Shown: one piece after another, positions 4,886 through 32,051 of the stretch
Layout: the number at the start of each line of letters is the position of its first letter
Position numbering within the stretch: the stretch's first letter is position 1
The notes under the pieces: model-generated
The model's input: the letters and a program-made list of their open reading frames with translations, nothing else
Database searches by the model: none
What the model was told of the DNA's origin: nothing
Source of the DNA: a virus
DNA: 32,051 nt
IMG/VR virus record: IMGVR_UViG_3300007734_000577
Coordinates: 1 to 32,051 of that record
Reading direction: 5' to 3' (one strand)
Made by a program: the position numbers and the translations under genes

Positions 4886-4940
4886 CAGAGTTTCTTCGCA
4901 GTGATGGGATATTTATAATCAAAGTGTGATTGGAGAAACA

Positions 4941-7900
4941 ATGGCAGAAACAACTTATCGATCTCCTGGATTTTTTGACAGAGAGATAGATCTATCTTCT
5001 CCGGCATCTGTGACTGTGACCGCGACACCCGCAGGTGTTGTAGGACCTAGTCCAGTTGGACCAGCATTCGTACCCGTGACGGTCAGTTCTCTTGCAGAGT
5101 TCAAAGAGAAATTCATCGGTACTTCTAATGATCGTTATGACACGTACTACGCAGCACAAGAATTTCTTAGAAGCGGCCAGGCCCTGACATTCGTCAGAAC
5201 ACTTGGAGTTGGTGCAAATAGCTCTGTAGGTGATATCACTACAACGCTCTCACAGGGAACAGCAAAAGGTGCAGGCTTCGTCATTACAGGATCAGTAAAT
5301 CAAAATCTGAAGTCGCAAGGCGCTGTCCAGTTCCTTGTTGCAAATCACGTTGTTAATAAGACAGCAAATGTATCATATCCTGTATTCATCGATAATCAGA
5401 GTTTCTCGACGTCTACATCAGGTGGTGATGCAAAGATGGTCAGAGCAGTCTTGCTCTTTCCAACTGGATCCCGCGCACAGATCCTAAGCTACAATGAGAA
5501 CTACTCACCTGCAAATGTTGTAGATGACGCAGCAACAATTCAGAGCACATCTACAGCAGCTAATTACAACACATTCAAGCTTGTCATCTCATCTTCATCA
5601 CCTGGATTTGGAACAGCTGATGGTTATACAGGCATCAAGATCTTTACTGCATCTCTTGATCCTGCAAGCTCTGCTTATGTTGGCAAGATTCTGAATACAG
5701 AGCCTGCTTTATTCCAGACGCAACAACACTTGCTCTATTTTGATCTCGCGGTTGAGAATGAACTTGCATATGTTTCTTCTGCAACTGATAGCGTTGGCCT
5801 ACTATCAGGTTCAACTAAGACATCAGCAAATTCTGCACTCGCATCACAGACATTCATAGATGCATTTGGAAGATTTGATACTCGTTATAAGGCAGCAAGA
5901 ACCACAAACTTCATCTCACAGCCATTCGGCGGTCAAGAGTACGATCTATTCTACTTTGAGACCATGGGTGACGGTGCTGCAACAAACCAACTTTACAAGG
6001 TTTCGATTGCAAATCTTAGGCGTTCAACAGATCCCCAGAATCCTTATGGAACTTTTACTGTACAAGTAAGAGACTTCTATGATGATGATAAGAATCCTAA
6101 CGTACTTGAGCAATACCCGAATTGCACACTTAACCCAGACGATGCAAATTTCGTCGGTAAGTTAATTGGTGACAAGAAAGTCTTCTACAACTTTGATGCA
6201 GCTAACTCTTTGGATAGAAACTTTGTCTCATCTGGGCAATATCCAAATGTGTCAACACGTGTAAGAATTGTGCTTGATGCTGACATTGTAAACAACAATA
6301 TCCCAAAGACAGCGCTTCCATTTGGTTTTAGAGGTATGCCGACTCAGAAGTACACGTCATCGCTTAAAGACTCTGATAACGGATCAGATCGGGCTGATGG
6401 TCCCATCTTAAGCAATCGCCTGATAGGAACGCTCGCAGGTTCTGCACAGTCATTGACTTCTTCAATCGCACCTCCTGTTCCACTTCGTTACAAGGTGACA
6501 CAAGGTGCAGTGAATTCTTCACCTGCATTCACAGGGTCTGCAGGAACACAGGAATTTGCTGATGCAAATCTCTATTGGGGCGTTAAATACGATCTATTCC
6601 CGTCAACTACAAGCTTCTTGGGAGCATCAGCAGTCTATCAGCCTAACTCGCCTGGTGCAATTAATCCACTAATCACATCGCTGGCAAAATTTGCAGGAAT
6701 AGAGAAACTCGATGTTGTTACGACAGGATCAACATCAGACAAGATGAATAATAACAAGTTCACACTTGCAAGAGTCGCGCTCTATAACTCCAAGGGTAAT
6801 GGTACGGCGCTCGCTGCAGCAGTCAACAATCTGACAGGAACGCTTGACCAACACATGGTAAATGCAATCTACGTCAGAAATAGAGAACCCGATGTGAATG
6901 ATGGCACGATCTCTGATGGCAATGAGCCCGGTTCAGTTGGAACAATCTCAGGAAGGTTGACTTTTGGTACGATGGCATTAATTACATCGTCTTCAATATT
7001 CAATAGATTCTCACCTTTTATGAAGTTCACCAACATGTTCTATGGAGGCTTCGACGGACTTAACATCCTCGATTCAGACATGGCCAATATGAATGATAAG
7101 TCAACTTCATCTGAACCTGGTGGTAAGGCAGCGACAGGTCTGAACATTGGACTTAACACAACGGCAAATATCTTCTCTGCAGGAACATCTAATTCATTGA
7201 TCAATTCGTATCGCGCCGGCGCAGATATCATCACAAATCCCGGCGTTTCTAATGTCAACATTGTCACGATTCCAGGCATTAGAGATAAGTTGATCACTGA
7301 TTACACATCGACAGCAACAAAGAACTATGCACGAGCCATCTACTTGATGGATATTCCGACATACACAGATTCTGGAACAAGAATCTTCGATAAGACAACG
7401 ATACCTGATGTGACATACACAATTAGGCAGTTCTCAGGTCGTGGAATCAATAACAACTATGTTGCAACATACTTCCCAGATGCATCGATTATTGATGAAT
7501 CATCAGCAGCTGTCGTTGGTAAGCGCATGAGAGTTCCTTCATCTGTTATTGCCTTAGGTGCACTTGCACAGAATGACTCAAAGACATATCCGTGGTATGC
7601 ACCTGCAGGATTTAATCGAGCAGCATTATCAAATGTTGTAAATCTTGCTGTTAGGCTCTCAAGCACTGATAGAGACAATCTCTATGATGCTCGAATCAAT
7701 CCTATCACGTCATTTCCTGGACTTGGATTTGTAATCTTCGGTCAGAAGACATTGCAGATTGCGCGCTCAGCACTTGATCGTGTTAATGTTAGAAGATTGA
7801 TGTTGGAACTTGCAAGAATTGTTACCAATATAGGTCTACAGTTCGTGTTTGAACCCAATACATCTGCTACTAGAGCAAGATTCGTGAGTCAATTGACACC

Positions 7901-8090
7901 ACAATTTGCAACAATCCAGTCACAAAGCGGTGTTGATAGTTTCCAAATAGTAATGGATGATTCCAACAATACACAACAAGATATCGAGGCAAATAAGCTT
8001 AACGGCAGGATCATCATAGTTCCTACAAAAGCAGTTGAGTTTATTGCAATCGATTTCATTATTACAAACTCCGGCGTCGAGTTTGTCTGA
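4941..8090 (+). CDS. Tail sheath protein, paralogue 1 (gp18-like)
   Basis: A 1,049-aa contractile-sheath subunit. I take ATG 4941 (MAETTYRSPGFF) as the start because GGAGA sits 5 nt upstream; a GTG 15 nt earlier has no such site. The N-terminus YRSPGFFDREIDLS and the following PVGPAFVPVTV are the usual sheath opening. The C-terminal domain (about residues 880-1049) has the conserved sheath core: YPWYAPAG, FGQKTLQ, DRVNVRRLMLELAR, FEPN and a final strand ending IDFIITNSG. It is far longer than T4 gp18 (659 aa), so the middle carries large insertions that probably form outer domains. It is homologous along its whole length to the next gene. Sheath subunits polymerise around the tube and contract on infection. 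Confidence 0.93.
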   Translation: MAETTYRSPGFFDREIDLSSPASVTVTATPAGVVGPSPVGPAFVPVTVSSLAEFKEKFIGTSNDRYDTYYAAQEFLRSGQALTFVRTLGVGANSSVGDITTTLSQGTAKGAGFVITGSVNQNLKSQGAVQFLVANHVVNKTANVSYPVFIDNQSFSTSTSGGDAKMVRAVLLFPTGSRAQILSYNENYSPANVVDDAATIQSTSTAANYNTFKLVISSSSPGFGTADGYTGIKIFTASLDPASSAYVGKILNTEPALFQTQQHLLYFDLAVENELAYVSSATDSVGLLSGSTKTSANSALASQTFIDAFGRFDTRYKAARTTNFISQPFGGQEYDLFYFETMGDGAATNQLYKVSIANLRRSTDPQNPYGTFTVQVRDFYDDDKNPNVLEQYPNCTLNPDDANFVGKLIGDKKVFYNFDAANSLDRNFVSSGQYPNVSTRVRIVLDADIVNNNIPKTALPFGFRGMPTQKYTSSLKDSDNGSDRADGPILSNRLIGTLAGSAQSLTSSIAPPVPLRYKVTQGAVNSSPAFTGSAGTQEFADANLYWGVKYDLFPSTTSFLGASAVYQPNSPGAINPLITSLAKFAGIEKLDVVTTGSTSDKMNNNKFTLARVALYNSKGNGTALAAAVNNLTGTLDQHMVNAIYVRNREPDVNDGTISDGNEPGSVGTISGRLTFGTMALITSSSIFNRFSPFMKFTNMFYGGFDGLNILDSDMANMNDKSTSSEPGGKAATGLNIGLNTTANIFSAGTSNSLINSYRAGADIITNPGVSNVNIVTIPGIRDKLITDYTSTATKNYARAIYLMDIPTYTDSGTRIFDKTTIPDVTYTIRQFSGRGINNNYVATYFPDASIIDESSAAVVGKRMRVPSSVIALGALAQNDSKTYPWYAPAGFNRAALSNVVNLAVRLSSTDRDNLYDARINPITSFPGLGFVIFGQKTLQIARSALDRVNVRRLMLELARIVTNIGLQFVFEPNTSATRARFVSQLTPQFATIQSQSGVDSFQIVMDDSNNTQQDIEANKLNGRIIIVPTKAVEFIAIDFIITNSGVEFV

Positions 8091-8115
8091 TACTTAGATC
8101 TAAGAGGTTGATCGA

Positions 8116-11094
8116 ATGGCAACACTAACTTATCCTGGCGTCTCTATCACAGAGATTGACAGATCGACAGCGTCAACTCGTTCCAATACGGGTGTCCCTG
8201 CAGGTATAATTGGTACTGCTGATAGTGGACCTGCATATGTTCCACTAACATTTAGCACTTACCAGAATATGACTAATGTTTTCGGCCTTAGCGGTGGAAG
8301 ATTTGGTCCTGTTGCAGTCAATTTGTGGCTATCAAATGGCGCAAATGCAAATGCAACATATCTCCGCGTGCTTGGTGCAGGTGATGGAACAAAACGATCA
8401 ACATCCACAGGTGCTGTAAATCGTGCAGGTTTTGTTGTCGGTGAGCAGCAAGTAGGTGCATCAGGTATCGTTGGTGCAAATCCTTACGCAAACTCAAATG
8501 GTATTCTTGGAATGACATATTTCCTGGGATGCTATATGTCTGAGTCAGCAGGATCAACATACTTCTCATCTGCAGGCATCCAAGATTCACCAAAAGCAAT
8601 GCCAATTATCAGAGGAATCCTGATGACGCCCTCCGGTGTCTCACTTTCTCTGTCTGGAAATTACACAACAGCAGCACTTAATCAGCCTTCTGGAATTGCA
8701 ACGGCAAATTCAGGAATCTCTGGCTCATATGATTTTACGACTAGCACATTCGTCATGTTGCTTAATGGGCACGTCAATAATCCTTCTGAGCAAGCACTTA
8801 ACATCATCACTGCGTCGTTTAATCCGGCATCGCCGTCGTATCTGCCAAATGTGCTCAATACGAATCCGTTTGATTACCAGAAGAAAGGTCATTACCTCTA
8901 CACATGGTACGATGTCTCAGAGCAAGTTGCGGCTGTAACAGGAACAAATATCCTCGCAGCGCCATATACACAGGGCGATACTAACAAGCAAGATGTTGTA
9001 TTTATTACATCATCTTCGCTTGGCAGAAATACATCAAATGCATCTACGCCAAACTTCGAGCAATTCAGCGAAAGATACACACATCCTAAGTCACCGTTTG
9101 TTATCTCACAAAACTACGGCGGACCAAAATACGATCTGTTCAGGATACATGCGCTTGCTGATGGTGTGTCATTAGGCGATGATTATCAACTTAATGCATT
9201 GAAGAATTACAAGATCACTATCGGAAATATTATTCCGGGTGCCAATGCTAATTCATATTCGCAGTTTGATCTTGAAGTTCGTCCATTTGATCTTGCAGAT
9301 GGTGCTGCTAATCCTCTTCCCGGATCATACTTTGCAGGACTTACGCTTGATCCTAACTCTGACAATTATATTGCTTCGAGAATCGGTGACCAGAATATCT
9401 ACTTCGACTTCGACCGTGCAAATGGTAGTCAGAAGATTGCTATCGTAGGAGATTACCCGGTAACAAACAACTACATCAGAGTCGAGCTATCAGCTGATCA
9501 AATTGCAGGAAATGTGCCTACAGACGCAGTTCCGGCAGGGTATAGGGGTTACGGTTATCTCTTCACATCAGGTAGCAGCCTTACAACATTTAGTGCAGTA
9601 GATCTTAACTTTGCAGCAAATCAGTATGAAGTCCTAAGGCGCGCAGTAATACCTCCTGTGCCAACGCGTCAGTCAATATCTGACGGTATTGCACCTTCAG
9701 CTGTTCTTAACACAGACTACACATGGGGATCAAAGTTCGAGAGTATCACTAGCCTCAATGAACAAAATGCAGAGACAACTTTCAACAAGTCAGTGCTTAA
9801 TTTTGCAAAATTCTTCCCAAGCTACGATGTAACTGGAAAGAAATTCTTTATTGAAAACACTGCAGCGGCTGATACATTTGAGAACAACATATTCACAATT
9901 GAAAATATTCAAGTTGTGACAGGTGCGTTTGGTGTCTCTAATGCGATTCTCTGGGAATCTGCATCGTACATAAGAAATGGAAACATCACAGCAAATGATG
10001 CGAATAAGTCCAGAGCGCTGGCAGTCAATGATCTTAATGATCTATACAGCTCCAATAGGCAGAATGTCTACTACACATTCTTCTTGCAAGGCGGATTTGA
10101 TGGCGTCAATATCTTTGACACACAGAAGGCGAACCTGACCGATCTCGCTGCGACAAGAGAAATTGATGATGCAACAAATCAAGGTGGCGTCAATGGCCCC
10201 ACAGTCTCATCATTTAAGAAAGCAATAGACATCATGGGTTCATCTGCAGATGTTGATATCCAGCTGCTTGCAGTTCCTGGCATTAGAACACCTGCTATAA
10301 CAAACTATGCTGTCACTGCGGTTGAGAATAGATTCGATGCTTTGTATCTCATGGATATTCAGCAGAAAGATATGCTTAACACATATGTCACATCAAGCAA
10401 TCAAATCGTATCGATATCGAATACTGTGACAGACTTTAGATCACGCGGATTAAATACGTCTTTTGCCGCAGCATACTTCCCTGATGTTTCGATATCATCA
10501 CCAGACGGGACAGGAACAATCACAATTCCGCCCTCAGCTGTTGTCCTTGCTGCTTATGCAAAGAATGACACATATGCACCCTGGTATGCTCCTGCAGGTA
10601 CAACTCGTGGTGGTGTTCCGGCACTGACTGCAGGTTTCACTGCACTTGATGTTCCACTGAATGAATCATCGCCACAGCTTGGTACAATCTACGGCGCTGA
10701 TATTAACCCAATCGTCAAGTTGAGCAGCGGTACACAGACAGTTGTATGGGGTCAGAAGACACTGCTTAAGAATGCATCGTCACTCGACAGAGTGAATGTT
10801 AGACGCCTGTTAATAGACCTCAGGCGTAAGGTTCGTTCAGTTGCTAACTCGCTTCTATTCGAGCCGAATACACAAGCAACATTGACGAGATTCAATAATC
10901 TTGTCAATCCTATTCTTCAAGATGCACAAACAAGGTTTGGCGTTTCTCGTTATAAGGTCATAATTGATACGTCAACTACGACTCAGGCAGACATCGACAA
11001 TAATACGATAAGAGGAAAGATATTTCTGCAACCCGTCAGAGTCGCAGAATTTATCTCACTTGATTTCGTGATTAACGCATCATCAGCAACGTAA
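8116..11094 (+). CDS. Tail sheath protein, paralogue 2 (gp18-like)
   Basis: A 992-aa sheath subunit starting at ATG 8116 behind AGAGG, 25 nt after paralogue 1. N-terminus LTYPGVSITEIDRS is the canonical sheath opening. Shared landmarks with paralogue 1 include GGFDGVNIF (about residue 656), VPGIR, APWYAPAG (about 821), WGQKTL, DRVNVRRLL (about 890), FEPNTQAT and a closing strand ISLDFVINASS. The segments around TLDPNSDNY and GYRGYGY also align. Two intact, divergent copies in a row imply an old duplication with separate roles. By analogy, Afp/PVC contractile injection systems carry several sheath paralogues, one of which sits at the baseplate. Which copy forms the bulk of this tail cannot be told from sequence. 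Confidence 0.93.
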   Translation: MATLTYPGVSITEIDRSTASTRSNTGVPAGIIGTADSGPAYVPLTFSTYQNMTNVFGLSGGRFGPVAVNLWLSNGANANATYLRVLGAGDGTKRSTSTGAVNRAGFVVGEQQVGASGIVGANPYANSNGILGMTYFLGCYMSESAGSTYFSSAGIQDSPKAMPIIRGILMTPSGVSLSLSGNYTTAALNQPSGIATANSGISGSYDFTTSTFVMLLNGHVNNPSEQALNIITASFNPASPSYLPNVLNTNPFDYQKKGHYLYTWYDVSEQVAAVTGTNILAAPYTQGDTNKQDVVFITSSSLGRNTSNASTPNFEQFSERYTHPKSPFVISQNYGGPKYDLFRIHALADGVSLGDDYQLNALKNYKITIGNIIPGANANSYSQFDLEVRPFDLADGAANPLPGSYFAGLTLDPNSDNYIASRIGDQNIYFDFDRANGSQKIAIVGDYPVTNNYIRVELSADQIAGNVPTDAVPAGYRGYGYLFTSGSSLTTFSAVDLNFAANQYEVLRRAVIPPVPTRQSISDGIAPSAVLNTDYTWGSKFESITSLNEQNAETTFNKSVLNFAKFFPSYDVTGKKFFIENTAAADTFENNIFTIENIQVVTGAFGVSNAILWESASYIRNGNITANDANKSRALAVNDLNDLYSSNRQNVYYTFFLQGGFDGVNIFDTQKANLTDLAATREIDDATNQGGVNGPTVSSFKKAIDIMGSSADVDIQLLAVPGIRTPAITNYAVTAVENRFDALYLMDIQQKDMLNTYVTSSNQIVSISNTVTDFRSRGLNTSFAAAYFPDVSISSPDGTGTITIPPSAVVLAAYAKNDTYAPWYAPAGTTRGGVPALTAGFTALDVPLNESSPQLGTIYGADINPIVKLSSGTQTVVWGQKTLLKNASSLDRVNVRRLLIDLRRKVRSVANSLLFEPNTQATLTRFNNLVNPILQDAQTRFGVSRYKVIIDTSTTTQADIDNNTIRGKIFLQPVRVAEFISLDFVINASSAT

Positions 11095-24605: not shown

Positions 24606-25442
24606 ATGCCCATCAATTTTGATGCGATTCGCAAGAAGCTCGATAATCTCAGTGGAAACAATAAGAAGTCTTCTTCCTCCTGGAAGCCCAAGGAAGGTGA
24701 AGAGTATACAATTAGACTTCTGAGCTTCCCTGGAAATGACGGCCAGCCCTTCAAGGAGTTGTGGTTCTACTACAACATTGGCAACAATCCTGGTCTCCTG
24801 GCACCTTACCAGTTCGGTAAGCCTGACCCGATCCAGGACCTGATCACCCGTCTTCGTGAAGAAGGGACCAAGGAGTCCTACGAGCTTGCCAAGAAGCTGT
24901 ACCCGAAGATGCGTTGCTATGCACCGGTTGTGGTCCGGGGAGAAGAAGACAAGGGAGTCCAGCTTTGGGCATTTGGCAAGCAAGTTTATCAGGCTTTGCT
25001 TGGCATCATGTTGGATGAAGATTATGGCGATATCACCGATCCTGAGTCCGGTCGTGATGTGAAGGTTCGTTGCTTCAAGCCTGCTGGCAAGAAGTACTCT
25101 GAAACTGAGGTTATGCCTCGTGGAAAGTCAGCTGTACTTTCCACCAATGCAGGTCAGGCAAAGCAGTGGATGGGTAACATCCCTGATGTCTCGAATCTCT
25201 TTGAGGTTAAGAGTGCCGATGAGCTGAGCAAGATTGTCAATGACTGGATTAATGGTGGAGCACCTGACGGTGATGGAACGCTTCATGGCCCGGTTTCAAC
25301 TTCATCTGCAGCAAAAGATGAAGATGATACTCCTGCTCCTGCTCCAAAATCAAGCAACAGCCCAGTTGCGTCTAGCACAACTAGCAAGACAAAGAACTTT
25401 AAGTCTCTAGATGATGCATTCTCAGACTTGATGGAAGACTAA
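24606..25442 (+). CDS. Single-strand DNA-binding protein (gp32-like)
   Basis: A 278-aa protein from ATG 24606. N-terminal FDAIRKKLDNLSGNNKK is a basic arm like the one gp32 uses for cooperative binding. The core (about 30-200: EYTIRLLSFPGNDGQPFKEL, LLAPYQFGKPDPIQDL, RCYAPVVVRGEEDKGVQLW, DEDYGDITDPESGRDV) is the gp32 OB-fold pattern of marine T4-like phages. A Ser/Pro/Ala linker leads to an acidic tail, DDAFSDLMED, the usual docking site for replication partners. The zinc ligands of T4 gp32 (one His, three Cys) are not evident; only two isolated cysteines are visible. Codons are GC-richer than neighbours, typical of high expression. A terminator follows, so it can be a single-gene transcript. 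Confidence 0.88.
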   Translation: MPINFDAIRKKLDNLSGNNKKSSSSWKPKEGEEYTIRLLSFPGNDGQPFKELWFYYNIGNNPGLLAPYQFGKPDPIQDLITRLREEGTKESYELAKKLYPKMRCYAPVVVRGEEDKGVQLWAFGKQVYQALLGIMLDEDYGDITDPESGRDVKVRCFKPAGKKYSETEVMPRGKSAVLSTNAGQAKQWMGNIPDVSNLFEVKSADELSKIVNDWINGGAPDGDGTLHGPVSTSSAAKDEDDTPAPAPKSSNSPVASSTTSKTKNFKSLDDAFSDLMED

Positions 25443-25509: not shown

Positions 25510-26661
25510 ATGGCAAGAGTAGCGAAAGCAACACGACCTGACGAATCTTCAGGTGATTTTACGGCAGAACTTATCTCCTCTCTTAATAAGGAGAACGGTT
25601 CGAGAATAGCATACAATCTAGCAGAAGATGAATCTCCCACACACATCAAGCGCTGGATATCGACAGGATCAACTCTTCTCGATTATATCGTCTCTAACAG
25701 GAAGCGTGCAGGCCTTCCTGAAGGGCGTATTATTGAGATCTTTGGTCCTCCATCGATTGGCAAGTCTCATATCGCAACACAGATAGCTCGTTCAACACAA
25801 CAGATGGGTGGAATCTGTGTCTATATCGACACTGAGAATGCCACATCTGTCGAGAATCTTCAGGCGCTAGGGGTTGATGTGACAAAGCGATTTGTCTATG
25901 TTGACACACACTGCACAGAAGAAGTTCTTGATATTGCTGAGAAGACTATCCTAAAGGCAAAGGCGATGCAAAAAGATGTCCCGATAACTATTATCTGGGA
26001 CTCTGTGGCAGCATCATCACCTAAAGCAGAGCTGTTGGGCGACTATGACAAAGATAGCATCGGCCTCCAGGCAAGAGCAATCTCTAAGGGAATGAGAAAA
26101 ATCACCGGCGTCATCGGTGACCAATCTGTTCTCATGGTCTGCCTCAACCAGACACGTGTCAAGATCGGTGTCTTGCATGGTGATCCGACATCTGTTCCAG
26201 GTGGTATGGCAATTCCGTTCCATGCATCAGTTCGAATCAAGCTGGGTGCAGGTCAGCAGATCCAAAACAAGAACGGTGACGTCATCGGTATCAATGTCTC
26301 TGCTAAGACAGTAAAGAACAAGGTGGCACCACCATTCAGGACTGCAAACTTCCAAATCCACTTTGGAAAGGGCATTGTTGAGCACGAAGAGATCTTTGAT
26401 GTCTTACGTGATGCAGGTGAGAGACAGATCGGGAATAAGATCATCTGCGTATCAGGTGATGGTGCGTGGAAAGTCTTCACAGTGACTGATGTTGATCTTG
26501 GCGCAGCAATCATTGAGAAGAAATTCCATAAAGCTGAGTTTGGCGAGTTGTTAAAAAATCCTGAGTATGCGGGTTATTTAGACAGCTTGATTGAAGCAGT
26601 CATGATACGCACAAAGCAAGATGCAGAGATCGAAGAGTTCGAAGAAGAAGAGGCAGTGTAA
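25510..26661 (+). CDS. uvsX: RecA/UvsX-type recombinase
   Basis: A 383-aa protein from ATG 25510 with AAGGAG upstream. Walker A is GPPSIGKS (about residue 78) and Walker B is ITIIWDSVAA (about 157-166). The L1/L2 region includes GLQARAISKGMRKITG and SVPGGMAIPFHASVRIKLG, as in RecA. VCLNQTRVK corresponds to the RecA NQ motif near loop 2. An acidic tail (EIEEFEEEEAV) ends the protein, as in RecA and UvsX. The enzyme forms filaments on ssDNA and catalyses strand exchange, which in T4-like phages primes recombination-dependent replication and works with the SSB encoded just upstream. The stop overlaps the next start by one base (TAATG). Confidence 0.9.
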   Translation: MARVAKATRPDESSGDFTAELISSLNKENGSRIAYNLAEDESPTHIKRWISTGSTLLDYIVSNRKRAGLPEGRIIEIFGPPSIGKSHIATQIARSTQQMGGICVYIDTENATSVENLQALGVDVTKRFVYVDTHCTEEVLDIAEKTILKAKAMQKDVPITIIWDSVAASSPKAELLGDYDKDSIGLQARAISKGMRKITGVIGDQSVLMVCLNQTRVKIGVLHGDPTSVPGGMAIPFHASVRIKLGAGQQIQNKNGDVIGINVSAKTVKNKVAPPFRTANFQIHFGKGIVEHEEIFDVLRDAGERQIGNKIICVSGDGAWKVFTVTDVDLGAAIIEKKFHKAEFGELLKNPEYAGYLDSLIEAVMIRTKQDAEIEEFEEEEAV

Positions 26662-27617
26662 TGACAGGCGAAGGAACAATCCTCTTAATTGATGCACTAA
26701 ACCTGTTCCTTCGCCACTTTACTGCAAACCCAGCAATGGGTAGCAATGGTAATCATGTGGGTGGGATCATTGGGTTTCTGTATGATCTTACTCACATGGT
26801 TCAGCGCTTCAAGCCGCAAAAAGTCTATGTGGTTTGGGAAGGAGGCGGTTCTGCACGTAGAAGAGCTATCTTCCCAGACTACAAAGCGCATAGGAGGCCT
26901 GAACGGCTAAATCGATTCTATGCCGATGAAATCAAGTCAACAGTGTCTGACTATGATACCCAGGTAAAAGACATTGTAGGACTACTTAAGAATCTTCCGG
27001 TAAATCAGCTTTATGTGCCTGATTGCGAAGCTGATGACGTGATTGGATTCATCTGTCGATATGAGCATCCAAAAGATCTTCACGTAATCCTGTCGTCAGA
27101 CAAAGACTATTACCAGCTTATTAGCGACCGGGCTGTAATCTATTCACCTACGTCTAAGAAGATCATTCAGACACAAGATGTGATTGATCGCTTTGGAATT
27201 CATCCAAACAACTTTGCACTTGCAAAAGCAGTCTGTGGAGACCCATCAGATAACATTCCTGGGATCCCAGGTGTGAAGTATAAAACACTAAACAAGCGTT
27301 TCCCGTGTTTGGCAGAATCAAACGCAGCCTTATTGGATGATATTCTGAGCGAAGCTCGTGAACGAGCTACAACATCGACAGTCAAGGCATTCGCTGAGAT
27401 TATTTCACATGAATCATTAATCAGGCGAAACTGGCAGCTTGTCAATCTTGACACAGGAATCCTTGCAGGCCACCAAGTTAAGAAGATCCAAGACCTGTGT
27501 GGTAATTCTAAGACCACGCGAGATAAGATCGAATTTATACGATATTTACTGCGCCTGGGCATCCAGACGTACAACACCGACCACATGTTCTTTGCACTTA
27601 GTCATATTGGAGCTTAA
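26661..27617 (+). CDS. FEN-type 5'-3' exonuclease / flap nuclease
   Basis: A 318-aa protein from ATG 26661, translationally coupled to the recombinase. It has the full set of acidic motifs of the Pol I 5'-nuclease/RNase H (T4 rnh) superfamily. These are LLIDALNLFLRHF (about 8-20), VVWEGGGSARRRAIFPDYK (about 58-76, with Arg/Lys contacts), PDCEADDVIGF (about 119-129), LSSDKDYYQLI (about 143-153) and VCGDPSDNIPGIPGV (about 189-203, the helix-hairpin-helix entry). It probably removes RNA primers and flaps during lagging-strand synthesis, which fits a polymerase here that lacks a nuclease domain. The end of the gene contains the ribosome-binding site of the helicase gene. Confidence 0.9.
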   Translation: MTGEGTILLIDALNLFLRHFTANPAMGSNGNHVGGIIGFLYDLTHMVQRFKPQKVYVVWEGGGSARRRAIFPDYKAHRRPERLNRFYADEIKSTVSDYDTQVKDIVGLLKNLPVNQLYVPDCEADDVIGFICRYEHPKDLHVILSSDKDYYQLISDRAVIYSPTSKKIIQTQDVIDRFGIHPNNFALAKAVCGDPSDNIPGIPGVKYKTLNKRFPCLAESNAALLDDILSEARERATTSTVKAFAEIISHESLIRRNWQLVNLDTGILAGHQVKKIQDLCGNSKTTRDKIEFIRYLLRLGIQTYNTDHMFFALSHIGA

Positions 27618-27618
27618 A

Positions 27619-28989
27619 TTGTCAGGAATCGCCCACTTTAGTCAATACGGCAAAAACTTCCAAGAGAAGATCCTCCAGTGTCTTTTCACTGACAGGATGT
27701 GGTCGACTCAGATGACTGAGATTATGACGCCCGAATATTTCGAGCTGAAGTATCTCCAGTATCTGAGTAAGGCCTACTTCAGCTACTATCAAAAGTACAA
27801 GGATTTTCCAACACTTCCTCTTCTCATCACAATCATTAGAGATGACCTCAAGGAAGGCAAGGACACGATCCTTCGTGACCAGATCGTTGAGTTCTTGCAG
27901 AGAATTCGAGTCAATCCTGATGTTGGTGACCTCCAGTTCGTCAAAGATAAGACACTTGATTTTTGCAAAAAGCAAGCAATGAAAGAGGCTCTTGAGAAAG
28001 CAGTTGAGCTGATTGCAACAGACAATATCGATTCTGTTGTCGACTTGATGAAGAATGCTCTTGCGGCAGGCACTCCTGCTTCGATCGGTCATGACTTCTT
28101 TGAAGATACAGAAGCAAGATTTATTAAGACAAGACGGGTCACTTGCCCGACAGGTCTTAGTCAAATTGATGCACCGGACATCTTAAATGGAGGACTTGGA
28201 CGTGGTGAGTTAGGTGTTATTGTTGCACCTACAGGCGTTGGCAAATCACATTTTCTAGTCCAGATAGGTGCAGAAGCACTTCGTGTAGGCAAGAACGTCG
28301 TTCATTACACGTTCGAATTATCTGAGACCTCGGTAGGTCTTCGTTATGATTCAAATCTATGTAGCATACCATCAGGTGATGTGATCGATAGAAAAGATGA
28401 AGTTCTTGATTTCTATAAACAGAACCAGCTTGGTCGACTGATAATTAAGGAATACCCAACAGGAACAGCATCTGTTCAGACGCTGCGAAATCATATCGAG
28501 AAGCTGCTATTGAAGTCTTTTGTACCAAGTATCATCATCATCGACTATGCTGATATTATGAAATCCTCAAGAAAGTTTGACTCTTTGCGTCATGAGTTGA
28601 AACTCGTGTATGAAGAGTTGAGAAATCTATCGATGGACCTCAATCTACCATTATGGACAGCATCGCAGTCAAATCGAGAAGGTTCCAATGCTGATGTTGT
28701 AGGCCTTGAGAATATGAGTGAGGCATACGGCAAAGCAATGGTAGCTGACGTTGTTCTCTCAATTTCGAGAAAGCCTACAGAGAAAGCTGACGGCAGCGGC
28801 AGAATCTTTGTCGCAAAGAATAGGGCAGGTCGTGATGGAATGCTCTTTACGATGAAAATTGACACATCGATGTCTAAATTCATGCTAATGGATACAAATG
28901 AAATGTCGATGGATGACGTTGTCAAAGCTGATGGGTCTAGTATGAAAAAGCTTCTCAAAGAGAAGTGGGATTTAGTTAACGCAAAGTGA
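27619..28989 (+). CDS. Replicative DNA helicase (DnaB / T4 gp41-like), TTG start
   Basis: I place the start at TTG 27619 (SGIAHFSQYGKN): GGAG at 27609-27612 is 6 nt upstream and the reading frame before it only shadows the nuclease gene. This gives 456 aa, close to T4 gp41 (475 aa). The N-terminal 150 residues are the helical DnaB-N-like domain. The RecA-like motor shows Walker A APTGVGKSHFL (about 203), FELSET (about 233), Walker B IIIIDYADIM (about 304), motif LWTASQSNREG (about 348) and an arginine-finger region IFVAKNRAGRDGM (about 395). It would unwind DNA ahead of the polymerase as a hexamer. No primase gene lies in the window. The start codon is one base after the nuclease stop, implying coupling. 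Confidence 0.88.
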   Translation: MSGIAHFSQYGKNFQEKILQCLFTDRMWSTQMTEIMTPEYFELKYLQYLSKAYFSYYQKYKDFPTLPLLITIIRDDLKEGKDTILRDQIVEFLQRIRVNPDVGDLQFVKDKTLDFCKKQAMKEALEKAVELIATDNIDSVVDLMKNALAAGTPASIGHDFFEDTEARFIKTRRVTCPTGLSQIDAPDILNGGLGRGELGVIVAPTGVGKSHFLVQIGAEALRVGKNVVHYTFELSETSVGLRYDSNLCSIPSGDVIDRKDEVLDFYKQNQLGRLIIKEYPTGTASVQTLRNHIEKLLLKSFVPSIIIIDYADIMKSSRKFDSLRHELKLVYEELRNLSMDLNLPLWTASQSNREGSNADVVGLENMSEAYGKAMVADVVLSISRKPTEKADGSGRIFVAKNRAGRDGMLFTMKIDTSMSKFMLMDTNEMSMDDVVKADGSSMKKLLKEKWDLVNAK

Positions 28990-29018: not shown

Positions 29019-31514
29019 ATGTCAAACAGTTTGAAGGAGAAAGCCTATGAAGAAATTACATCTTACTTTGATGGTGATGAGCTTGCTCCCGATGTGTTCC
29101 TAAAGTATGCACTTCATGATGGAGATGCGCTTCTTGAAGTGAATCCAGACCAGATGCATCGTCGTATTGCGCGAGAATTCGCAAGGATCGAGTCAAAGTA
29201 TCCAAGCCCAATGTCAGAAGATGAGATCTACGATCTCCTGAAGAACTTTGCTGATGTGGTCCCCCAAGGATCGCCAATGTCTGGCATCGGCAACCCGTAT
29301 CAGTTGCAGAGTCTCTCAAACTGTTTTGTCATTGATCAACCCCATGACTCCTACGGCGGCATCCTGTTCTCTGATCAAGAACAAGTTCAGATCATGAAGC
29401 GGCGTGGTGGTGTTGGAATGGATATCTCCAATATTCGCCCTAAGGGCCAGCCGACCTCCAATGCTGCAAGAACCACAGATGGCCTCGGTGTTTTCATGGA
29501 GCGCTTCAGCAACTCGACCCGTGAGGTTGCACAGGGTGGAAGACGCGGAGCACTGATGCTCACTATTGACTGCCGTCATCCGGAGATCGAGACCTTCATC
29601 GACATTAAACGTGACCTCAAGAAAGTGACAGGTGCGAATATTTCTATCCGTTTTACGGATGAGTTCATGCATGCTGTGGATCGAAATTCTGAGTTCACAC
29701 TTCGATGGCCTGTTGAGAAGAGTCCGGAAGATGCTGAGATCACTAAGATAGTAAGTGCCAAGCAGATCTGGGACAAATTTGTTGATGCAGCATGGACTTC
29801 TGCCGAGCCTGGTGCACTTTTTTGGGACACAATAATCAAAAACGGCATACCAGATTGCTATCAAGATATTGGATATAAAACAATCAGCACAAATCCTTGC
29901 GGCGAGATTCCTCTCAGCCCTTACGATTCTTGTCGATTAATGGTGGTAAATCTCACTTCATTTGTTCTTAGCCCATTCACAGATTGTGCGCGATTTGACT
30001 TTAATCGATTTAAATCAGTTGTCTATAAAGCACAACGACTAATGGATGATCTTGTCGATCTTGAGATCGAGTGTGTTGATCGCATTCTTGCAAAGATTGA
30101 AAGTGATCCGCAACCCCAGCATGTGAAGCAGATCGAATGGGATCTTTGGCACAAGATCAGGGCAGCAGGTCGCAATGGACGACGTACAGGTCTTGGCATT
30201 ACAGGACTTGGTGATGCACTCGCAGGTCTCAATATCAAATACGGTTCAGAATGTTCAATCTCAGCAACAAATGAGATCTATAAGACCCTTGCAATTGGTG
30301 CACATTCTTCGTCGCTGATTATGGCGCAGGAACGTGGTGCATTCCCTGCATTCAGCTACGAGAAAGAGAAAGATCATGATTATCTTAAAAAGATAATGGA
30401 ATCATGTGGACCTGATTTTGTTGACATGTGGAAAAAGACAGGTCGACGTAATATCGCACTTACTACCACAGCACCTGTCGGGTCTGTGTCTTGCTTGACC
30501 AGAACGACATCGGGTATTGAACCGGCTTTCTTGCTCTCTTATAAGCGTCGTCGCAAGATCACACAAGGTGATATTCATTCCAGAATGGATTATGTTGATC
30601 AAATGGGCGATAAATGGCAGGAATACACAGTCTATCATCACTGGTTTAAGCGGTGGATGGAGATCACCGGAAAGACAGATCCTAAAGATAGCCCATACTG
30701 GGGCGGAACAGCAAACGACATTAACTGGGAAAATTCTGTCACAATTCAAGCGACAGCCCAGCAATGGGTTGATCACTCAATAAGCAAAACTTGTAATCTG
30801 CCAAACTCAGCAACACGTGAGACAGTTAATTCTGTCTATATGAAAGCTTGGAAATCTGGATGCAAAGGTTTTACGGTCTATCGTGATGGTTGCCGTGCTG
30901 GTGTGCTTGTCTCCAATGATGAGCCCAAGAAAGAAGACAAGAAAGTTGAAGAAGGGCGTCTTGCACCAAAGCGCCCAAGAACACTAAAATGTGACATTCA
31001 CAGGGCAAATGTTAGAAATGGTGAAAAGTCTGAATCGTGGCTTGTCCTCGTTGGGCTTAGCGAAGGAATGCCTTATGAGGTCTTCTGCGGAATTCCAGAG
31101 AACATTGAGATTCCCAAGAAGTTCAAGGCAGGAACGCTTCTAAAGAACGGCAAGCGCGAGGGCGTCACCACATATAATCTTCTTGTTCCAACCGGCGCAG
31201 GTGAAGATGACAGCATTGTTTTCAAAGATATCGTGAATCTGTTTGATAATCCAACACAAGGTGCCTTCACTAGGACAATCTCTCTTGCACTCCGGCATGA
31301 TGTTCCACTGCACTACGTGGTTGAACAGTTGCAAAAAGACAAGAATAGCGACATGTTCTCCTTTGCAAGAGTAATTGCCAGAGTCCTTAAAGGCTATATT
31401 GTTGATGGTACAACATCAAGTGAAAAATCTTGCCCATCATGTAAGAACGGTGATCTTGTCTATCAAGAAGGTTGTCTCTCATGCAAGTCTTGCGGTTATA
31501 GTAAGTGCGGATAA
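29019..31514 (+). CDS. nrdJ: Class II (adenosylcobalamin-dependent) ribonucleotide reductase
   Basis: An 831-aa protein from ATG 29019 with AGGAG upstream. It has the glycyl-free, B12-type layout. The first redox Cys is in SLSNCFV (about 99). GGVGMDISNIRPKG (about 130) and EVAQGGRRGALMLTIDC follow. The thiyl-radical site is NPCGEIPL (about 293) and the partner Cys is in SCRLMVVNLTS (about 305). GLGITGLGDALAGL, TTAPVGSVSCLTRTTSGIEP and CKGFTVYRDG complete the barrel. A C-terminal domain (about 660-790) and a cysteine-rich end (CPSCKNG, then GCLSCKSCGYSKCG) provide zinc binding and the swinging disulfide. There is no ATP-cone at the N-terminus. It reduces ribonucleotides for phage DNA synthesis and needs host B12. 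A block near 29.40-29.58 kb is about 55% GC against about 40% later in the gene. Confidence 0.92.
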   Translation: MSNSLKEKAYEEITSYFDGDELAPDVFLKYALHDGDALLEVNPDQMHRRIAREFARIESKYPSPMSEDEIYDLLKNFADVVPQGSPMSGIGNPYQLQSLSNCFVIDQPHDSYGGILFSDQEQVQIMKRRGGVGMDISNIRPKGQPTSNAARTTDGLGVFMERFSNSTREVAQGGRRGALMLTIDCRHPEIETFIDIKRDLKKVTGANISIRFTDEFMHAVDRNSEFTLRWPVEKSPEDAEITKIVSAKQIWDKFVDAAWTSAEPGALFWDTIIKNGIPDCYQDIGYKTISTNPCGEIPLSPYDSCRLMVVNLTSFVLSPFTDCARFDFNRFKSVVYKAQRLMDDLVDLEIECVDRILAKIESDPQPQHVKQIEWDLWHKIRAAGRNGRRTGLGITGLGDALAGLNIKYGSECSISATNEIYKTLAIGAHSSSLIMAQERGAFPAFSYEKEKDHDYLKKIMESCGPDFVDMWKKTGRRNIALTTTAPVGSVSCLTRTTSGIEPAFLLSYKRRRKITQGDIHSRMDYVDQMGDKWQEYTVYHHWFKRWMEITGKTDPKDSPYWGGTANDINWENSVTIQATAQQWVDHSISKTCNLPNSATRETVNSVYMKAWKSGCKGFTVYRDGCRAGVLVSNDEPKKEDKKVEEGRLAPKRPRTLKCDIHRANVRNGEKSESWLVLVGLSEGMPYEVFCGIPENIEIPKKFKAGTLLKNGKREGVTTYNLLVPTGAGEDDSIVFKDIVNLFDNPTQGAFTRTISLALRHDVPLHYVVEQLQKDKNSDMFSFARVIARVLKGYIVDGTTSSEKSCPSCKNGDLVYQEGCLSCKSCGYSKCG

Positions 31515-31536
31515 ACAAATCTCTTAAAGGTATAAA

Positions 31537-32051
31537 ATGACTAATGTAATTGCTGAATATATTTGGATTGACGGCTCAATTCCAACAGCAAAGCTTAGAA
31601 GCAAAACAAAGATCTTTTTTCACAATGAAGACATTCTTAAATTTGAGAATATTCCTTCATGGACATTTGATGGATCTTCTACGGGTCAAGCAACAGGAAA
31701 TAAAAGTGATTGTGTGCTTCTACCTGTTGCTTTTTGCAAAGATCCAATAAGGACAACAAAACAACCTGCAATTCTTGTTCTTTGTGAAGTCTTTAACGCA
31801 GATGGAACGCCACATAGGTCAAATAAGCGTCGTGATCTTCTCAAAATGATGGAGCGCAAGTCATATAAGAATCCGCTATGTGGAATTGAGCAAGAATACA
31901 CGCTCTTCAAAGGCGGTCGTCCTCTTGGATGGAATACAGGCGGCTTCGCACCACAGCAGGGACCCTACTATTGCGGTGTAGGCACAGACGAAGTCTGTGG
32001 ACGCGATCTTGTTGAAGATCATATGAAGGCATGTCTTGATGCAGGTATTAT
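31537..32051 (+). CDS. glnII: Type II glutamine synthetase, N-terminal half (runs off the window)
   Basis: ATG 31537 with AAAGG 6 nt upstream; 171 complete codons are present and the frame is open to the edge. The sequence follows the eukaryotic-type GSII pattern: AEYIWIDGS at the start, LRSKTKIF, then SWTFDGSSTGQATG (about 41-54, with the ammonium-site Asp), VLCEVFNADGTPH, GIEQEYTLF (about 115, with the two metal-binding Glu), APQQGPYYCGVG (about 137) and GRDLVEDHMKACLDAGI. Family length is about 330-370 aa, so about half is visible. It makes glutamine from glutamate, ammonia and ATP. Next to the reductase, it probably feeds nitrogen to nucleotide synthesis. Codon use matches the phage, suggesting long residence rather than recent capture. 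Confidence 0.92.
   Translation, partial: MTNVIAEYIWIDGSIPTAKLRSKTKIFFHNEDILKFENIPSWTFDGSSTGQATGNKSDCVLLPVAFCKDPIRTTKQPAILVLCEVFNADGTPHRSNKRRDLLKMMERKSYKNPLCGIEQEYTLFKGGRPLGWNTGGFAPQQGPYYCGVGTDEVCGRDLVEDHMKACLDAGI

Follow-up and report, generated by a model that had tools for sequence, protein, structure and literature searches.

A type II glutamine synthetase encoded beside nucleotide-synthesis genes in a lineage of uncultivated phages

At the end of the genome record of an uncultivated phage, directly after a class II ribonucleotide reductase (RNR) gene, lies the N-terminal half of a type II glutamine synthetase (GSII) gene. Sequence comparisons identify it as a genuine phage-encoded GSII, and not a decayed one. 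The reading that we favor, and consider probable, is that it specifies a working ammonia-dependent enzyme of bacterial origin, which would raise glutamine for host-run purine and CTP synthesis and is kept within the phage dNTP module. A further-reaching proposal is put forward tentatively: in this lineage, GSII might be a fixed part of a phage dNTP factory (RNR-GS-ThyX) and a bypass of the host-regulated GSI, so that purine and CTP synthesis would not run short of glutamine; GSII might also have been acquired by phages several times.

The GSII gene and its setting in the phage record

The window, that is, the whole stretch of DNA analyzed, is the complete IMG/VR record IMGVR_UViG_3300007734_000577 (32,051 bases). 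It contains genes of a contractile-tailed phage, all on the + strand. Two tandem tail-sheath proteins, a marker of contractile tails, are encoded at 4926..11094 (phrog_23, 9.4e-57 and 6.7e-52); both are large, with 1054 aa (4926-8090) and 992 aa (8116-11094). A baseplate hub is also present, as are a single-strand DNA-binding protein (24606..25442; phrog_1192, 3.6e-18), a UvsX-like recombinase (25510..26661; phrog_97, 4.5e-68), an exonuclease (26661..27617; phrog_107, 3.4e-34), and a DnaB-like replicative helicase (27439..28989; phrog_19, 1.3e-77). The next gene, at 29019..31514, encodes the class II (adenosylcobalamin-dependent) RNR NrdJ, of 831 aa (TIGR02504, 500 bits for a curated cut-off of 400; Pfam PF02867). 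The tail sheaths, baseplate hub, UvsX, and DnaB on the same record, in an arrangement that recurs in other viral contigs, locate the GSII gene in a phage genome and not in a host flank.

The GS reading frame (31537..32049, + strand) starts with an ATG 22 nt past the RNR stop and remains open at the 3′ end of the window after 171 complete codons. Because the window is the whole record, this truncation is the end of the contig and not of the gene. The part that can be read covers the beta-grasp domain and the start of the catalytic domain, the rest lying beyond the record end. The original prediction had described a clean GSII N-terminal half, directly after a class II reductase, with its own ribosome-binding site and phage-like codon use, and this description held. 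Indeed, the FDGSST, GIEQEY, and GPYYCGVG motifs were all found in the protein, the catalytic residues of the N-terminal half were present, and the Pfam Gln-synt_N model (PF03951, N-terminal beta-grasp) matched it with 48.5 bits (6.9e-13) against a cut-off of 33.4. A probable ribosome-binding site (31523..31536, + strand) places AAAGG six bases upstream of the ATG. The mention of phage-like codon use was fair, GC3 being 0.29 as compared with 0.28-0.44 for the other genes of the window.

Integrity, selection, and origin

Close relatives of this GS are encoded at eleven viral loci. One of them, L003, encodes a full-length protein of 338 aa with a normal stop (L003:8001-9017), 98% identical to the window GS, and thus supplies the C-terminal half. 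The PF00120 C-terminal catalytic domain matched the L003 protein with 56.1 bits (cut-off 24), and the GlnII equivalog model NF041605 aligned nearly full length with 457 bits, as compared with 50 bits for GSI and 38 bits for GSIII. In four viral proteins, NF041605 scores were 440-461 bits, below the curated cut-off of 500, and we therefore claim membership of the GSII family and not of the bacterial GlnII equivalog. The best solved relatives of the L003 protein were the Streptomyces, yeast, and plant GSIIs (about 1e-119 to 1e-94), with matches spanning the whole protein.

The C-terminal glutamate and arginine of the active site, which the original prediction had proposed to look for downstream, were present in the relatives. 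More generally, the catalytic Glu/Arg and substrate-binding residues that we checked, located with residue numbers of human GS, were invariant in 104/104 full-length viral GSIIs and in yeast, with the exception of Y144. At this position, one tyrosine of GPYYC, 83 of the 104 viral proteins have Y and 21 have F. The dN/dS ratio between the window and L003 GS genes was about 0.07, indicating purifying selection. A decayed gene was thus ruled out by the intact L003 reading frame, the invariant active site, and this ratio. Incidentally, dS was 0.14 for GS and 0.61 for the adjacent RNR (window 29019-32049 versus L003). The low value for GS suggests recent recombination around this gene between the window and L003 phages.

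Since the gene sits right at the edge of the record, it might be a recent passenger from a host, or a chimeric contig end, devoid of phage function. We regard this as extremely improbable, as the L003 locus matches the window with 89% nucleotide identity over 8.5 kb, unbroken across the RNR-GS junction; L002, L004, L005, L006, and L007 likewise match on both sides of it; several contigs share this junction and gene, with nucleotide identities of about 70-90%; and the GSIIs form a phage-only clade with low dN/dS. A chimera is thus ruled out unless all these separate contigs share one error. In short, neither the premature stop nor the loss of active-site residues that the original prediction had named as fatal to it was found in the C-terminal half as read from L003 and other relatives, nor was the chimerism.

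A GSII tree, as the original prediction had proposed, was built, using a quick search without bootstraps and with SH-aLRT supports; besides references, it comprised 81 GSIIs from viruses and 41 from bacteria. The nine non-redundant GSIIs of the window clade grouped together to the exclusion of bacterial sequences (SH-aLRT 99), within a wider set of bacterial GSIIs. The group lay near Myxococcota and proteobacterial GSIIs, the exact sister being weakly supported, and the phage protein was 55-60% identical to its nearest bacterial counterparts. Across the tree, the phage label required at least three changes on well-supported branches, and it is therefore probable that GSII has passed between bacteria and phages repeatedly. 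An ancestor of the phage lineage would have taken GSII from bacteria, and the gene would then have been kept under purifying selection within the DNA-replication/dNTP module.

Conserved neighborhood and proposed role

In the window clade, gene order is conserved. It reads DnaB, RNR, GS, a small DUF2061 membrane protein, and ThyX in L003, and DnaB, RNR, ClpP, GS, DUF2061, and ThyX in L004 to L006. Both L003 and L004 have glycosylase and dUTPase-like genes farther along, and in L014 ThyX precedes GS while a thymidylate kinase follows it. In 6/6 clade records with a detected RNR, its distance from GS is at most 2.2 kb, and ThyX is no more than 250 bp away in 7/7 with a detected ThyX. The GS stop shares bases with the next ATG (TGATG) in L004 and L006, which suggests translational coupling.

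Several features of the neighboring genes were also noticed. The DUF2061 protein, a predicted membrane protein of 74-77 aa, has a start overlapping the 3′ end of GS (L003:9014-9247 and L005:9011-9235), and DUF2061-related reading frames were seen 3′ of GS in five clade loci. The RNR is uninterrupted in the window, fragmented in L014 and L119, and enlarged to 1143 aa in L006 (L006:3934-7365), where the reductase barrel contains an intein splicing domain together with a match to an HNH endonuclease; the L120 version (L120:3385-7302) has 1305 aa. In addition to the normal ThyX, L004 has a second ThyX-like gene ~4 kb further downstream than GS (L004:13268-14218). Its product, ~320 aa long, is divergent and carries an RHR..S motif, and the L005, L006, and L120 records have equivalents.

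Outside the window clade, RNR linkage was not above chance, since only 1 of 17 other phage GSIIs had an RNR within 5 kb for 1.5 expected. ThyX linkage was weak (4/15 versus 1.4 expected, P about 0.04, ignoring relatedness). The dNTP-module setting is thus a property of the window lineage and not of phage GSIIs generally. In other phage clades, GSII was found beside ClpP, PhoH, amidase, DNA polymerase B, glycosyltransferases, or a tail-sheath-like gene. In one of these clades, an IMP dehydrogenase/GMP reductase-family gene lies directly 3′ of GS (L130:9038-10075). Downstream of GS, L012 carries a 1599-aa gene that was considered as a candidate glutamate synthase (GOGAT), but it instead gave a weak match to a tail-sheath domain.

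We looked for partner genes in 36 records, which are often fragments. Class I amidotransferase PF00117 was found in 1/36, GATase_6 PF13522 in 5/36, and a PII homologue in 0/36, and neither amidotransferase family occurred in the window clade. The original prediction had also proposed a search for base-modification genes nearby, and none was recognizable among the annotated clade neighbors, as judged from annotations only. With neither of the two amidotransferase families found in the clade and no PII in the 36 records, it would be host enzymes that use up the glutamine.

Bacterial GSI enzymes can be regulated by adenylylation, a control to which GSII is not subject. During infection, the phage GSII would convert host glutamate to glutamine with ammonium and ATP, and would presumably escape host adenylylation control. 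This glutamine would feed the host amidotransferase steps leading to purines, GMP, and CTP, and the resulting ribonucleotides would be turned into dNTPs by the phage RNR, ThyX, and dUTPase-like enzymes. Enzyme activity, its timing, the escape from host control, and a benefit to nucleotide synthesis over nitrogen assimilation in general are all what we infer from sequence. The neighborhood is indirect evidence for a role in nucleotide synthesis because RNR and ThyX themselves use no glutamine.

A serious rival, which we judge rather unlikely, is that the enzyme works mainly in general nitrogen assimilation, providing glutamine for protein or keeping a nitrogen-status signal high or ammonium low, and that the RNR adjacency is an accident of an early/metabolic gene cluster. 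The unrelated neighbors of GSII in other phage clades, with RNR linkage not above chance there, are in line with this possibility, and published authors have interpreted phage GS in terms of nitrogen assimilation (PMC12619734, PMC11944383). However, linkage with dNTP genes is kept in every checkable record of the window clade, the L130 GSII adjoins an IMPDH/GMP-reductase-family gene, and the PII search was negative throughout the 36 records.

The original prediction had offered two roles, namely a glutamine supply for nucleotide synthesis or a GS-like ligase acting on a hypermodified base. The first one is consistent with the dNTP-gene neighbors ThyX and dUTPase-like, and corresponds to the reading that we favor. 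The second one, a GS-fold amidoligase repurposed for nucleotide or base modification, for example of a hypermodified pyrimidine, appears very improbable. The proximity of ThyX, of its second paralogue, and of dUTPase-like genes in relatives would fit it, but the canonical ATP, glutamate, and ammonium residues are retained, identity to bacterial GSII is 55-60%, and the clade records yielded neither PF00117 or PF13522 amidotransferases nor, among annotated neighbors, a recognizable base-modification gene.

Comparison with known glutamine synthetases

The original prediction knew of no well-characterized phage GSII. For biochemistry, this stood in the literature that we searched: no description of a biochemically studied phage GSII, or of the RNR-GS-ThyX arrangement, was found in openly licensed literature. 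The gene itself, on the other hand, is neither rare nor unreported (PMC1821046, PMC12619734). A degenerate-pattern scan with a family alignment returned at least 590 viral stretches in which a relative of GS is encoded, these being stretches and not independent phages. In a tblastn search of 50,697 phage records, the only ones found with a GSII were four from uncultured huge phages; all other matches, with 23-30% identity, were distant GS relatives, two of them annotated as type I. GSII is frequent in environmental phage contigs, yet no cultured phage of this collection was found to carry it.

Viral type II GS was seen as early as 2007 in Global Ocean Sampling (GOS) data (Yooseph et al., PMC1821046). 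Most type II sequences were assigned there to bacteria, and about half carried a Tyr-to-Phe change at the ammonium-pocket tyrosine (PMC1821046). Our GSIIs share with the GOS viral ones the viral assignment, the conserved active site, and this Tyr-to-Phe variation, probably at the Y144 position. In contrast, the viral sequences of GOS were placed close to eukaryotes and mimivirus, and GOS gives no phage gene context (PMC1821046). GS has also been reported in digester phages (PMC11944383), in nine moraphages (PMC12619734), and in jumbo phages (PMC13037316). Papers on S-CREM1, the OM43 methylophage, phiCbK, YerA41, and an ODZ virome mention GS only in other senses. Like the window GSII, the moraphage and jumbo-phage auxiliary metabolic genes are phage-encoded GSs of large tailed phages. 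Neither GS type nor gene context was found for them in the text searched, and the window lineage and its RNR-GS-ThyX order are described from the contigs analyzed here. The metagenomic huge phages LR756501, LR756502, and LR745206 encode GSIIs 46-48% identical over 97-99% of the length, but their genomes are far larger (634-735 kb), their GSs more distant, and their records unannotated.

The bacterial GlnII (Streptomyces GSII, PDB 4bax; NF041605) is also among the closest known systems. Length (338 versus about 333-344 aa), catalytic residues, and near-full-length alignment are the same, whereas the phage GSII sits in a dNTP-synthesis module, scores below the NF041605 cut-off, and forms its own clade. 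Most listings of phage GS genes go by annotation only. The clade described here combines intact active sites and purifying selection with a conserved position in a nucleotide module, and so turns the idea that phages may relieve a shortage of glutamine into a specific one that can be tested. The window GSII adds a good example to a known class of borrowed metabolic genes and is not a new kind of system.
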